From positions 357,215 through 421,214 of the forward strand of contig NZ_AQWL01000003.1 in the NCBI RefSeq assembly GCF_000376425.1: DNA of 64,000 nucleotides, given 5' to 3'. The notes below the pieces were generated by a model, which saw only the letters and a program-made list of their open reading frames with translations, did not search any database and had not been told where the DNA came from. Source of the DNA: Thiobacillus denitrificans DSM 12475 (GTDB taxonomy: Bacteria > Pseudomonadota > Gammaproteobacteria > Burkholderiales > Thiobacillaceae). Positions within the stretch are counted from its first letter, which is position 1. Each line of letters begins with the position of its first letter. Of this stretch, positions 40,944-45,750 are shown piece by piece. The position numbers were made by a program, and so were the translations under genes.

Positions 40944-42101
40944 CTAGCCGGGGCTGGCGGTGCGAAAGCCCGCGAATGGATCGCGCCGCTCGGGCAAATA
41001 GAAATTGCGGAAGCCGGGGCGCTTGAGCGACGGGTCGGTGACGGGTCCGCCGCCGCGCAATTCGCCATGCGTATGAAACCAGGGCTGGGCGTAATCCTGG
41101 TAGGGATCGGGGGAAAATCCCGGATAAGGCGCAAACGCATCGCGCAGCCATTCCCACGCCATGCCGCGGCGAAATTCCGGCTGCCGCGTTGCCCGCAGCC
41201 ACTGCTCTGCGGCGGGCAGCCGCCGCCCCATCCAGGCAGCACAGGCCTCGGCTTCGTGACGGTTCACGTGCAGCATGGGCCGGTCTGCGCTGAGCGGCCG
41301 CCAGCGGTCGAAGTGACGAACCTGCCAGGCCGCGTTTTGCCGTCGCCAGTAAACGGGCTGGCAGGCGCCGCTGGCGGCCCGCCAGGCCCGACCTGCATCC
41401 GACCACCCCGCGCTGCGCCGGTAACCGCCAGCGTCTACAAACTCGGCGAAAGCCACCTCCGACAGCGGGCTCGCATCGATATCGAATGCCGGGACCGGCA
41501 CCGGATGACGCCACTTCTCGTTGTCGAAAATGAAGCCCTCGCCGCTTCCGCTGCCCAGTTCCACCTCGCCCGCGGCGAACGCCAGCCGCGACGCCGGCAA
41601 CGCGCCGGCAACATCGGGCCGCGCGGGCGGCGCATAGCCCAGATTCTGGAACGCCATCCACCAGGCCTCGACGTGCATCAGTTCGTGATACAGGCACAAC
41701 TCGGCGAAATACGCGAGCTCGGGGTCGAGTCCGCTGCGCAGGCGAACGGCCACGGCGGCGGCAACCCGTTCTGCGTATTCGTCGACCGCGGCAGGTTCGG
41801 GCAAGGCCAGATCCCAGCGGCGATCGTGCGGAACGCTGGAGGAATCGTACAGCGCGTCGGCCGCCGCCAGCAGGCTGGCCGCAAACCCGCCATCGGGCCG
41901 TGCCCGCAGGCACCAGCGCTCCTGAAACCAGACGATGTGCCCGTATTCCCACAGCGGCGGATTCAGATGCCCGGCGCGCGGCCCCAGCCAGGCGCCCGCG
42001 GGCAGGCAGTCGATCAATGCCCGCAGCCGGCCGCGCGCCTGCGCCAGCCGATCGATGAGCTGGTTCGCAGTATGGCCGCTGACGGGTCGGGTTCGGTTCA
42101 T
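40944..42101 (-). CDS. EgtB/SenA-type non-heme iron sulfoxide (or selenoneine) synthase
   Basis: A 385-residue enzyme with an N-terminal DinB-like four-helix domain and a C-terminal formylglycine-generating-enzyme/sulfatase-modifying domain (about 190-380). Iron-ligand histidines appear at His54 (YGHIVWFQE) and His139/His143 (HELMHVE), the same spacing as in known EgtB. The C-terminal RNFYLPERRDPFAGFR is typical. EgtB joins hercynine to cysteine or gamma-glutamylcysteine; the homologue SenA uses a selenosugar to make selenoneine. Being divergent from selD, 66 bases apart, with egtD following, favours a SenA-like role, though no senB-like gene is present here. Confidence 0.85.
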   Translation of the reverse strand: MNRTRPVSGHTANQLIDRLAQARGRLRALIDCLPAGAWLGPRAGHLNPPLWEYGHIVWFQERWCLRARPDGGFAASLLAAADALYDSSSVPHDRRWDLALPEPAAVDEYAERVAAAVAVRLRSGLDPELAYFAELCLYHELMHVEAWWMAFQNLGYAPPARPDVAGALPASRLAFAAGEVELGSGSGEGFIFDNEKWRHPVPVPAFDIDASPLSEVAFAEFVDAGGYRRSAGWSDAGRAWRAASGACQPVYWRRQNAAWQVRHFDRWRPLSADRPMLHVNRHEAEACAAWMGRRLPAAEQWLRATRQPEFRRGMAWEWLRDAFAPYPGFSPDPYQDYAQPWFHTHGELRGGGPVTDPSLKRPGFRNFYLPERRDPFAGFRTASPG

Positions 42102-42167
42102 GCTATATAGATGCACTATGTCCAACCGAATTCTAGGCGCCCCTCCCGCGATGGGCGAATTCTGAAA

Positions 42168-43238
42168 ATGAGCAACCCCATTCCCGAGCAGCCCATCCGA
42201 TTGACCCAGCTTTCCCATGGCGGGGGATGCGGCTGCAAGATCGCGCCCGCCGTATTGCGCGACATCCTGGCCGATACGGCCTTCGCTACGCAGATGGCGA
42301 CGGCCTATCCCGATCTGCTGGTCGGCATCGAGCACGGCGACGACGCCGCGGTCTACCGCCTCAACGACGAGCAGGCGATCGTGGCGACCACCGATTTCTT
42401 CATGCCCATCGTCGACGATCCCTTCGAGTTCGGCCGCATCGCCGCCACCAATGCGCTGTCCGACGTCTATGCCATGGGCGGGCGGCCGCTGTTCGCCCTA
42501 GCCATTGTCGGCATGCCGATCGGCAAGCTGCCCAACGAGGTCATCCGGCAGATCCTCGCCGGTGGCGAAGCGGTCTGCAAGGCGGCCGGTATTCCCATCG
42601 CCGGCGGCCATTCGATCGACGCCCCGGAACCGATCTACGGCCTGGTCGGCATCGGCGTGGTGGATCCGCGCAAGGTCAAGCAAAACAACGGCGGCCAGGC
42701 CGGCGACCACCTGATCCTCGGCAAACCGCTGGGCGTGGGCATCTACAGCGCGGCGCTGAAGAAAGGCCTGCTCAGCGCCGAGCAATATGCGGCGATGATC
42801 GCCGCCACCACCCAGCTCAACACCGCGGGCGCCGATCTGGCCGCAACCGCGGGCGTGCACGCGATGACCGACATCACCGGCTTCGGCCTGCTCGGGCACC
42901 TGCTCGAAATCACCCGTGCATCGAACCTGTCGGCCCAGGTTGGGCTGGGCCGCCTGCCCCTGCTGCCCGGCGTCGCCGAACTGGCGCAGGGCGGCCATGT
43001 CACTGGCGCCAGCGGCCGCAACTGGGCGAGCTACGGCAGCGAAGTGAGCCTGGCCGGCGGCATCGCCGACTGGCAGCAGGCCCTGCTCACCGACCCGCAG
43101 ACCAGCGGCGGCCTGCTGGTGAGTTGCGCCACCGCGGCGCGCGACACGGTGCTGGAAACCTTCCGGCGGCACGGCTTCGCGCAGGCGGCGGAAATCGGCC
43201 GGCTGCAGGCCGGCCGCGATGTTGCGATCAGCGTCTGA
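42168..43238 (+). CDS. selD: selenide, water dikinase (selenophosphate synthase)
   Basis: A 356-residue enzyme making selenophosphate from selenide and ATP. The active-site pair is present as Cys21 and Lys24 in HGGGCGCKIAP, with cysteine rather than selenocysteine. GHSIDAPEPIYGL, NTAGADLAATAGVHAMTDITGFGLLGH and DPQTSGGLL are conserved. Start ATG 42168 is taken from family alignment (MSNPIPEQPIRLTQLSH); a longer frame from 42111 is less likely. Its stop codon is followed directly by the egtD start, so the two are coupled. In selenoneine clusters this position is occupied by senC, a selD homologue. Confidence 0.95.
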   Translation: MSNPIPEQPIRLTQLSHGGGCGCKIAPAVLRDILADTAFATQMATAYPDLLVGIEHGDDAAVYRLNDEQAIVATTDFFMPIVDDPFEFGRIAATNALSDVYAMGGRPLFALAIVGMPIGKLPNEVIRQILAGGEAVCKAAGIPIAGGHSIDAPEPIYGLVGIGVVDPRKVKQNNGGQAGDHLILGKPLGVGIYSAALKKGLLSAEQYAAMIAATTQLNTAGADLAATAGVHAMTDITGFGLLGHLLEITRASNLSAQVGLGRLPLLPGVAELAQGGHVTGASGRNWASYGSEVSLAGGIADWQQALLTDPQTSGGLLVSCATAARDTVLETFRRHGFAQAAEIGRLQAGRDVAISV

Positions 43239-44180
43239 GTGTCGTTCACCTTTCAGGACTTTCCCGTCGCCGCCGACGATTTGCGCAGCGACGTGCTGGC
43301 CGGCCTCGCCGCCTGCCCCAAATCCATTCCGCCGAAATATTTCTATGACGAGGCGGGCTGCCGTCTGTTCGAAGCCATTTGTGCGCAACCCGAATATGCC
43401 CTCTGCCGCACCGAACGGATGCTCATGGCCTCCCGCCTGCCCGACATTGCGGCCGCCGCCGGCCCGCTCGACTGCATCATCGAGCCGGGCGCCGGCGAGT
43501 GCAGCAAGGTGCGTCTGCTGCTCGACGCCCTGCACCCCGCCCATCTCGTCGTCCTGGACATCGCCGGCGCCCCGCTGGCCGCCGCCGCGCAAGCCCTCGC
43601 CCAGGCTTATCCGGGCCTTGTCGTCACCGCGCTGGGCATGGATTTCATCCGTGACCTGGAAGCCGCGGCCCCCTGCCTGCCGCCCGGCCGGCGGCTGATC
43701 TATTATCCCGGCTCCAGCATCGGCAACTTCCCGCCCGATACGGCAACCGCTCTGCTCACGCGCTTCCGCCGGCTGGCCGGCGCCGATGGGCGCCTGCTCA
43801 TCGGCTTCGACCTCAAGAAAGATCCGCTGCTGCTGCACGCCGCCTATAACGACGCTGCCGGCATCACCGCCGCCTTCAACCTTAATCTCCTCGAGCGCCT
43901 GAACCGCGAGCTGGGTGCCGATTTCGATCCCGCCCGATTCCGCCACTACGCCTTCTACAATCCGGTTGCCGGCCGCATCGAGATGCATCTGCTCAGCCTC
44001 GCCGCGCAGACGGTGAGCGTAGCGGGCCAACGTTTCCATTTCGCCCTCGGCGAGACGCTGCATACCGAGTATTCCTACAAGTTCCGGCGCGACGAATTCA
44101 GCACGATTGCGGGGAACGCCGGCTGGGAACTGGCGAACGAATGGGAACAGCAAGGATTCGCTGTCCAGCTGTATGGATAA
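43239..44180 (+). CDS. egtD: L-histidine N-alpha-methyltransferase (EgtD)
   Basis: A 313-residue enzyme that trimethylates histidine to hercynine using SAM. Family signatures include SIPPKYFYDEAGCRLFEAICAQPEYALCRTE near residue 27, IIEPGAGECSKVRLLLDAL, YYPGSSIGNFPP and the C-terminal HTEYSYKFRRDEF. The start is GTG 43239, immediately after the selD stop with no gap and no clear ribosome binding site, implying translational coupling. Hercynine is the substrate of the divergent EgtB/SenA-like enzyme. Confidence 0.94.
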   Translation: MSFTFQDFPVAADDLRSDVLAGLAACPKSIPPKYFYDEAGCRLFEAICAQPEYALCRTERMLMASRLPDIAAAAGPLDCIIEPGAGECSKVRLLLDALHPAHLVVLDIAGAPLAAAAQALAQAYPGLVVTALGMDFIRDLEAAAPCLPPGRRLIYYPGSSIGNFPPDTATALLTRFRRLAGADGRLLIGFDLKKDPLLLHAAYNDAAGITAAFNLNLLERLNRELGADFDPARFRHYAFYNPVAGRIEMHLLSLAAQTVSVAGQRFHFALGETLHTEYSYKFRRDEFSTIAGNAGWELANEWEQQGFAVQLYG

Positions 44181-44283
44181 GCAGGCGCGTGCACGCCCGA
44201 TGCGCTTCATGGCACTGCAGGCAGGCGGGTAACCCTGTCGTCGGGCGGGTCGCACAAACCCGGCCAGGCTTTAGAATTTCTCC

Positions 44284-45750
44284 ATGCTCAAACTTGAATC
44301 GCTCGTCTTCGACAACGGCTTCGCCCGCCTACCCGAAGCCTACTATTCGCGCGTCTGCCCGACGCCCGTCCCCGATCCCTACCTGGTCTGCTACAGCCCG
44401 CAAGCGGCCGTGCTGATCGATCTCGATCCGGCCGAGATGGCGCGCCCCGAGCTCGTCGAGACGCTCGCGGGCAACCGCCTGCTACCCGGGATGGACGCGC
44501 TCGCCGCGCTGTATGCCGGGCACCAGTTCGGCCACTACGTGCCGCAGCTGGGCGACGGCCGCGCGATCCTGCTGGGCGAAGTGAAAAATGCGGCCGGCGA
44601 AGGCTGGGAAGTGCAGCTGAAGGGCGCAGGACGCACCCCCTATTCGCGCGGCGGCGACGGCCGCGCGGTATTGCGTTCCAGCATCCGCGAATTCCTCTGC
44701 TCCGAAGCCATGCACGCGCTCGGGATTCCCACCACGCGCGCGCTCGCCATCGTCGGCAGCGATCATCCGGTCTATCGCGAGGACGTCGAAACCGCCGCGC
44801 TGGTGACACGGCTGGCGCCGAGCTTCGTGCGCTTCGGTTCCTTCGAGGTGTTCTACTACCGCAACCAGATCGAGCCGATCCGGCAGCTGGCCGACTACGT
44901 CATCGCACGCTACTACCCGGAACTGGCGGCACGTGCCGAACCCTATGCCGAGCTGCTGCGCGAAGTCGCCCGTCGCACGGCCGAACTGATGGCACAGTGG
45001 CAGGCGGTCGGCTTCTCGCACGGGGTGATGAACACCGACAACATGTCGATCCTCGGCCTGACGCTGGATTACGGCCCGTTCGGCTTCCTCGACGCGTTCG
45101 ACCCCGGCTTCGTCTGCAATCATTCCGACAGCGGCGGTCGCTACGCCTTCGACCAGCAGCCCGACGTGGCGGCGTGGAACGTCACCAAGCTGGCGCAGGC
45201 GCTGGTGCCGCTGCTGTCGGTGGAAACCGCCTCCGCCGCGATCGGCGACTACCCGCAGCAGTTCGGTCGCGCCTATATCGAGCGCATGGCCGCCAAATTC
45301 GGCCTGCCACCGGGCGGCGAGACAGTCCCACTGCTGATGGATACGCTGCAACTGCTGGCGCAGAACCGCGTCGATTACACGATTTTCCTGCGCCGCCTGT
45401 GCGATTTCGATTCCACGCCCGGGGCGCTCAACGCACCGTTGCGCGACCTATTCCCCGACCGCCCCGCCTTCGACGCCTGGGCGGCGCGCTATGCCGCCGC
45501 ACTGCGCCAGCAGGATTCGGCCGACGCCACACGCCGCGAGGCGATGCGCGCGCTCAATCCGAAATACATCCTGCGCAATCACCTGGCCGAAGCAGCCATC
45601 CGTCGCGCCGCGGACCATCGCGATTACAGCGAAATCCATCGCCTGCATGCGCTGCTGTCGCGGCCTTATGACGAGCAGCCGGAATGCGAGGCCTACGCCG
45701 CCGAGCCGCCGGACTGGGCGAAGCGGATCGAGGTAAGCTGCTCTTCGTGA
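44284..45750 (+). CDS. selO: protein adenylyltransferase SelO (YdiU)
   Basis: A 488-residue pseudokinase-fold enzyme that transfers AMP to protein hydroxyl groups and helps in oxidative stress. Seen are GHQFGHYVPQLGDGRAILLGE, the lysine region VQLKGAGRTPYSRGGDGRAVLRSSIREFLCSEAM, and active-site GVMNTDNMSILGLTLDYGPFGFLD. The C-terminus is CSS, the position where eukaryotic SelO has selenocysteine; here it is cysteine. It follows egtD by 103 bases and overlaps the next gene (GTGA). Confidence 0.95.
   Translation: MLKLESLVFDNGFARLPEAYYSRVCPTPVPDPYLVCYSPQAAVLIDLDPAEMARPELVETLAGNRLLPGMDALAALYAGHQFGHYVPQLGDGRAILLGEVKNAAGEGWEVQLKGAGRTPYSRGGDGRAVLRSSIREFLCSEAMHALGIPTTRALAIVGSDHPVYREDVETAALVTRLAPSFVRFGSFEVFYYRNQIEPIRQLADYVIARYYPELAARAEPYAELLREVARRTAELMAQWQAVGFSHGVMNTDNMSILGLTLDYGPFGFLDAFDPGFVCNHSDSGGRYAFDQQPDVAAWNVTKLAQALVPLLSVETASAAIGDYPQQFGRAYIERMAAKFGLPPGGETVPLLMDTLQLLAQNRVDYTIFLRRLCDFDSTPGALNAPLRDLFPDRPAFDAWAARYAAALRQQDSADATRREAMRALNPKYILRNHLAEAAIRRAADHRDYSEIHRLHALLSRPYDEQPECEAYAAEPPDWAKRIEVSCSS

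Follow-up and report, generated by a model that had tools for sequence, protein, structure and literature searches.

A selenoneine pathway probably divided between two chromosomal sites in Thiobacillus denitrificans

Introduction

Does a locus that pairs an iron enzyme gene with selD and egtD, and has no senB, serve selenoneine synthesis? The question is raised by positions 40,944 to 45,750 of a 64,000-nucleotide stretch of the Thiobacillus denitrificans DSM 12475 genome, referred to here as the window, where a gene for an enzyme of the EgtB or SenA type lies beside selD, egtD and selO. The candidate relatives of this enzyme are EgtB (ergothioneine), SenA (selenoneine) and OvsA, the ovoselenol enzyme, which acts on histidine. 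Thiobacillus is a sulphur oxidiser. An initial annotation of the locus had favoured selenium incorporation, considered that senB might lie elsewhere, that another selenium or sulphur donor might be used, or that a plain EgtB was linked to selD by chance, and proposed a tree of EgtB and SenA together with a genome search for senB, selA and mnmH. The reaction scheme of the selenoneine pathway has been described for Variovorax (PMC9814287 and PMC10702425).

Results

A SenA-type synthase beside selD and egtD

The senA gene occupies positions 40944..42101 on the reverse strand (ATG at 42101) and encodes a protein of 385 residues with DinB_2 and FGE-sulfatase domains. The layout given in the initial annotation agrees with our coordinates. 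A divergent intergenic region of 66 bases, read directly from the sequence (42102..42167), separates senA from selD (42168..43238, forward strand; ATG at 42168, stop TGA at 43236-43238), and the egtD gene (43239..44180, forward strand) starts with a GTG codon (43239-43241) directly after the selD stop. The selD product, a selenide, water dikinase that would take the SenC role, scores 529 bits on NF002098 (cut-off 299), and its translation includes a GCGCK stretch. The egtD product, a histidine N-alpha-methyltransferase that would supply hercynine, scores 361.9 bits on TIGR03438 (cut-off 290.9).

Judged from family models, structural matches, a tree and individual residues, the senA product is a selenoxide synthase of the SenA type and not EgtB. 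It scores 425.6 bits on the NCBIfam SenA model NF041186 (cut-off 420) and 233.2 bits, below the cut-off of 360, on the EgtB model TIGR03440. On the EgtB-related signature TIGR04373 (cut-off 71) the scores are 81.8 for the window protein, 93.7 for characterised SenA and 54.1 for OvsA. Its best matches in the PDB are the selenoneine synthases 8ryz (247 bits) and 8k5i (244 bits), followed by OvsA (162 bits) and EgtB 4x8b (134 bits), and the nearest SenA proteins, from Thiobacillus sp. 65-1402 and 65-1059, are 93% identical. In addition to the window protein, a maximum-likelihood tree comprised three PDB references and 55 of 85 extracted proteins, 59 in all, with duplicates and many Thiobacillus rows omitted. 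In this tree a branch with a support of 98/97 sets EgtB (11 survey rows and 4x8b) apart from OvsA, the other SenA-type rows and the window protein, and so excludes an EgtB grouping for the latter.

The protein was further aligned with 67 other SenA-type rows and 11 EgtB rows, and columns were picked from nine motif stretches rather than from a paper. Glu52, His92, Trp96, Met142 and Asp374 are the same letter in all 67 SenA-type rows and in none of the EgtB rows; OvsA shares all five. All 11 EgtB rows have Gln at column 142 and Arg at column 92, neither of which is found in the window protein. Its iron histidines are His55, His139 and His143; the last two had been correctly named before, while the supposed His54 is His55 when counted from the ATG at 42101. 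At columns 140, 336, 340 and 341, the window protein and characterised SenA have Glu, Asp, Pro and Trp, whereas OvsA has Gln, Phe, Leu and Gln; the OvsA letters come from one OvsA sequence, and Gln at column 140 also occurs in 3 of the 67 SenA-type rows. Taken with the TIGR04373 signature and the egtD gene next to selD, these four columns speak for SenA rather than OvsA.

SenB and other partners in the same genome

The T. denitrificans genome (3.61 Mb in 38 contigs, estimated completeness 100%) encodes a single SenB over the cut-off, at G000:C4:210095-211024, with 435.8 bits in the genome search and 436.2 bits as a protein (TIGR04348, cut-off 300). The absence of senB reported in the initial annotation therefore applies to the locus alone: elsewhere in the genome the gene is present, and another selenium or sulphur donor need not be invoked. 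The senA and selD genes are on contig C3 and senB on contig C4, at least about 225 kb apart, so that senA, senB and senC do not form a contiguous cluster in this genome. Residues of SenB for sugar choice, selenophosphate binding and catalysis (V. paradoxus numbering) are reported in PMC10891094; all nine of that list, Asn20, Thr23, His58, Arg61, Thr83, Thr85, Arg155, Lys158 and Glu231, are present in the T. denitrificans protein. It thus resembles known SenB proteins (TIGR04348; PDB 8fbx, 8jjq and 8k5u) in score and in its complete catalytic set, but its gene has no adjoining senA and is divergent from a SpoU-type methyltransferase gene, a neighbour common to some genomes without SenA.

The only SelD over the cut-off and the only EgtD (the sole PF10017 match) of the genome are those of the window. 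SelA (577.8 bits) and MnmH (372.5 bits) were found as well, so that the proposed search for senB, selA and mnmH returned all three. The single SelD would therefore supply three selenium uses, namely selenoneine, SelA and MnmH. No EgtB match was obtained in the genome at an expectation value (E) of 1e-70 or better. An FGE-type protein at C3:87540-88259 was considered as a second EgtB or SenA and rejected, as its best score was to PvdO (103.8 bits, cut-off 500), with only 47.6 bits to SenA.

Conservation of the senA locus among relatives

We compared 39 loci from named genomes with relatives of the window SenA; they are mostly kin of Thiobacillus and not independent, and were examined over flanks of at most 8 kb, some loci ending at contig ends. 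In 29 of them no more than 200 bp separate senA from a selD on the other strand, and egtD is present in the locus in 29. The association of senA, selD and egtD is not a matter of chance, contrary to one option of the initial annotation, and its view of a SenA-type protein with selD and egtD as functional neighbours is upheld. EgtD is encoded in all 39 genomes and SenB in 38, although senB stands inside the senA locus in just two (L046, Hydrogenophilus; L056, Trinickia).

Five loci (L023, L028, L030, L035 and L038, the last from T. thioparus DSM 505) have no egtD adjoining selD but an EgtD elsewhere in the genome; in G310, the genome of L028, the EgtD match contains one in-frame TAA. Two loci with a senA of the Betaproteobacteria/Thiobacillus type are filed under the titles of a Klebsiella pneumoniae metagenome-assembled genome (L053) and a Rhizobium sp. 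(L036), titles that look wrong.

SenA and SenB across the order

Across 300 surveyed genomes of the same order, the SenA model is passed in 65 and the SenB model in 87. Of the 87 SenB genomes, 52 have a SenA-type gene no more than 10 kb from SenB, 16 have one at a greater distance or on a different contig, and 19 have none listed, a split taken from hand-compiled lists of matches of about 338 bits or more, with EgtB rows left out. Some of the 16 distant cases may be contig breaks. Two of the 19 (G163 and G288) do have a divergent SenA adjoining SenB, that of G163 scoring 334.7 bits, and three (G286, G062 and G277) have EgtD and EgtB. SelD is found in 85 of the 87 SenB genomes (all but G198 and G002) against 130 of the 213 others, kinship not being corrected for.

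Five genomes (G003, G100, G132, G264 and G294) each have two SenA-model matches over the cut-off, and the second copy could be an OvsA-type enzyme. The SelD matches of G131, G293 and G005 contain one in-frame TGA, and these proteins possibly contain selenocysteine.

The proposed pathway and its alternatives

Because SenA, SenB, SelD and EgtD are all encoded in the genome, the scheme known from Variovorax is complete apart from linkage. We consider it very probable that Thiobacillus has a variant of this known pathway, split over two chromosomal sites. Genes, families, conserved residues and distribution are observed here; the reactions and the product would be those of the characterised Variovorax enzymes. 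SelD, from the window, would make selenophosphate, whose selenium SenB, from the other contig, would join to a uridine diphosphate (UDP)-sugar to give a selenosugar. EgtD, again from the window, would trimethylate histidine to hercynine, and SenA would couple selenosugar and hercynine via an iron-dependent selenoxide that breaks down to selenoneine. The same SelD would also feed SelA (selenocysteine) and MnmH (selenouridine). Enzymes of the SenA, SenB and SelD/SenC types are common to Thiobacillus and to the senA-senB-senC cluster of V. paradoxus, as described in PMC9814287 and PMC10702425. In contrast to that cluster, Thiobacillus has senB away from senA and egtD within the senA-selD locus, and its one SelD would have to serve SelA and MnmH as well.

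Several observations weigh against the split selenoneine pathway. OvsA (PDB 8ux5) scores 435.6 bits on NF041186, which is over the cut-off and more than the window protein reaches; the SenA model alone therefore proves only membership of the wider SenA/OvsA group, and the margin of the window protein over the cut-off is thin (425.6 against 420). The protein has Ala338 where 65 of the 67 SenA-type rows have Ser. The tree leaves OvsA and the SenA subgroups joined in one open fork. SenB was not found in the metagenome-assembled genome G316, the exception among the 39 named senA genomes. In the survey, a SenA-type gene is listed for 76 genomes, and in eight of these no SenB reaches the cut-off: a SenB-like match scoring 156-242 bits occurs in G147, G170, G245 and G275, and G033, G104, G242 and G059 have none above 100 bits. 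The latter four have a SenA-model match over the cut-off, and reflect either assembly gaps or a SenA that works with another donor.

One alternative is that the window encodes an OvsA-like selenoxide synthase, which would place selenium on histidine itself (ovoselenol type) rather than on hercynine. OvsA (PDB 8ux5 and 8u41) belongs to the same wider family, passes NF041186, shares the five SenA-type letters and sits in the same fork, but it falls below the cut-off of TIGR04373, which the window protein exceeds (54.1 and 81.8 bits), and differs at columns 140, 336, 340 and 341, where the window protein agrees with characterised SenA. Since egtD also follows selD directly and EgtD occurs in 39 of 39 senA genomes, we regard an OvsA-like enzyme as very unlikely. 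An ordinary EgtB that makes ergothioneine and stands next to selD by chance is more improbable still. Although EgtB (TIGR03440; PDB 4x8b) shares the fold family and the iron histidines, and the window protein reaches 233 bits on its model, this score is well short of 360, the protein stands outside the EgtB branch with Met142 and His92 in place of the EgtB Gln and Arg, selD is found no farther than 200 bp away in 29 of 39 loci, and SenB is present in 38 of 39 genomes.

A further possibility is that the SenA-SenB pair handles mainly sulphur, by way of a thiosugar, so that ergothioneine is its main product and the use of selenium a sideline. The sulphur-oxidising habit of Thiobacillus and the lack of an EgtB match at E ≤ 1e-70 in its genome are in keeping with this idea. 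So is the behaviour of V. paradoxus SenB when probed with thiophosphate, against which it discriminates only 10-20-fold according to PMC10702425. On the other hand, SenC is reported in the same paper not to accept sulphide, and SenB tracks SelD in the survey (85 of 87 against 130 of 213, uncorrected for kinship). We therefore attach little likelihood to a mainly sulphur-based pair and retain the split selenoneine pathway.

SenB in genomes without SenA

Fourteen of the 300 genomes (loci L066-L079; G043, G088, G201, G261, G014, G182, G095, G050, G028, G106, G187, G243, G273 and G069) encode a SenB over the cut-off and have no SenA-model match better than 1e-60. Their best SenA-model match has an E of 5.8e-50 or weaker, and none is listed for G095 and G106. 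Because OvsA scores like SenA on NF041186, these genomes appear to be without both SenA and OvsA; an ovoselenol route behind them was rejected, since OvsA scores 435.6 bits on this model and only weak SenA-model matches are seen. SelD is present in all 14. No EgtD was found in them at E ≤ 1e-20, and therefore no hercynine route is visible; no EgtB was found at E ≤ 1e-70. Four of the 14 belong to the family of the window's own organism. As G043, G182 and G069 are single-contig assemblies with an estimated completeness of 100%, assembly gaps are an unlikely reason for the SenA-less state.

The SenB proteins of these genomes all keep Asn20, Thr23, His58, Thr83, Thr85, Arg155, Lys158 and Glu231, and Arg61 is kept in 13 of 14, with Lys in the other. 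The ratio of non-synonymous to synonymous substitution rates (dN/dS) is 0.145-0.266 in seven pairs, which are not independent, and 0.188 in the pair formed by our organism and T. denitrificans RG; the dS of the pair L071/L075 is 1.75, near saturation. A decaying relic is not supported by these values, and there is good evidence, in the form of kept residues and constrained evolution, that function has been retained. On an unrooted tree of 64 SenB proteins, from which 21 of 85 aligned rows (Thiobacillus near-copies) were left out, the 14 rows form seven separate groups. SenA presence changes seven times on this tree (6-7 times in bootstraps, six changes being forced by well-supported branches), a count that omits five SenB-like rows and G286, G062 and G277, and that becomes eight if these three are taken as SenA-less. 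A single odd lineage was rejected (one clade, p-AU 4.3e-17), in a test run after the tree was seen.

No conserved partner enzyme was found beside senB in these genomes among the 20 proteins scanned, which are not every neighbour; the neighbours identified are housekeeping, ATP-binding cassette (ABC) transport and lipoprotein acyltransferase genes. In six of the genomes (G201, G014, G182, G028, G243 and G273) a weaker SenA-model match, with E between 1e-46 and 1e-50, could be a partner of SenB. Five further SenA-less genomes (G017, G064, G108, G184 and G215) encode a SenB-like protein of 173-229 bits, under the cut-off; none has EgtD, and four have SelD. In these genomes (L080-L084) the gene for this divergent SenB-like protein lies between short-chain dehydrogenase and thymidylate synthase/dihydrofolate reductase genes, with selD alongside in L081-L083.

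The SpoU-type neighbour of the Thiobacillus senB recurs at some of these sites. We compared 39 loci, in 26 of which senB was called, and in 12 of the 39 a member of its cluster stands one to three called genes away from senB. Among the 12 are six of the 14 loci with SenB only (L070, L071, L072, L075, L077 and L078) and three of the window's family (L085-L087); the family is named from one member, and the gene calls, made by a simple script, are of low quality in L074 and L100. This recurrence suggests that the Thiobacillus senB stands at an old site, where it works without senA in related organisms. The SenB tree, being unrooted, is neutral between loss and gain of SenA.

Given the kept residues, the dN/dS values and the seven groups, SenB probably has a selenosugar role outside selenoneine. 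A literature search on SenB in the absence of SenA, and on selenoneine from Thiobacillus, returned nothing to the point by title or start of abstract, which is no proof of absence. More tentatively, and with slightly more doubt than confidence, we suggest that SenB and SelD may form a stand-alone selenium trait in genomes of this order without SenA, OvsA and EgtD, the selenosugar being either the final compound or an intermediate on the way to an undescribed selenometabolite, and that Thiobacillus may have added, or kept, senA and egtD beside selD while using a separately housed SenB.

Neighbouring genes in the window

The selO gene, of the ydiU family, follows egtD at 44284..45750 on the forward strand, as initially annotated. 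Its product scores 454.3 bits on PF02696 (cut-off 22.8) and 601.6 bits on the YdiU subfamily model NF000658 (cut-off 431), and its matches to the two NCBIfam SelO equivalog models are under their cut-offs. The linkage to the senA locus is loose: selO is present in 24 of the 39 loci, each with a SenA at least 72% identical to that of the window, and in several loci other reading frames stand between egtD and selO. We infer from this that selO is unlikely to be part of the selenoneine pathway. The last residues of the protein are ...EVSCSS; Cys is thus the third residue from the C-terminus, the position that selenocysteine has in animal SelO. On the far side of the locus, a convergent moaA-like gene, named by eye, ends four bases from the end of senA. 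A scan of the whole window with Rfam at gathering scores returned two tRNAs only.

Discussion

Our results place a selenium small-molecule pathway, very probably that of selenoneine, in a genus of sulphur bacteria, where selenium must be chosen against large sulphur fluxes and where one SelD would be shared by three selenium uses. They also bear on annotation. The potential to make selenoneine is not readable from contiguous senABC clusters alone, as SenA and SenB are distant in 16 of the 87 SenB genomes, and automatic 'selenoneine synthase' labels derived from NF041186 may hide ovoselenol enzymes. Finally, the genomes that encode SenB and SelD and appear without SenA, OvsA and EgtD hint at a further, undescribed use of selenium, and are specific organisms in which a third class of selenometabolite could be sought.

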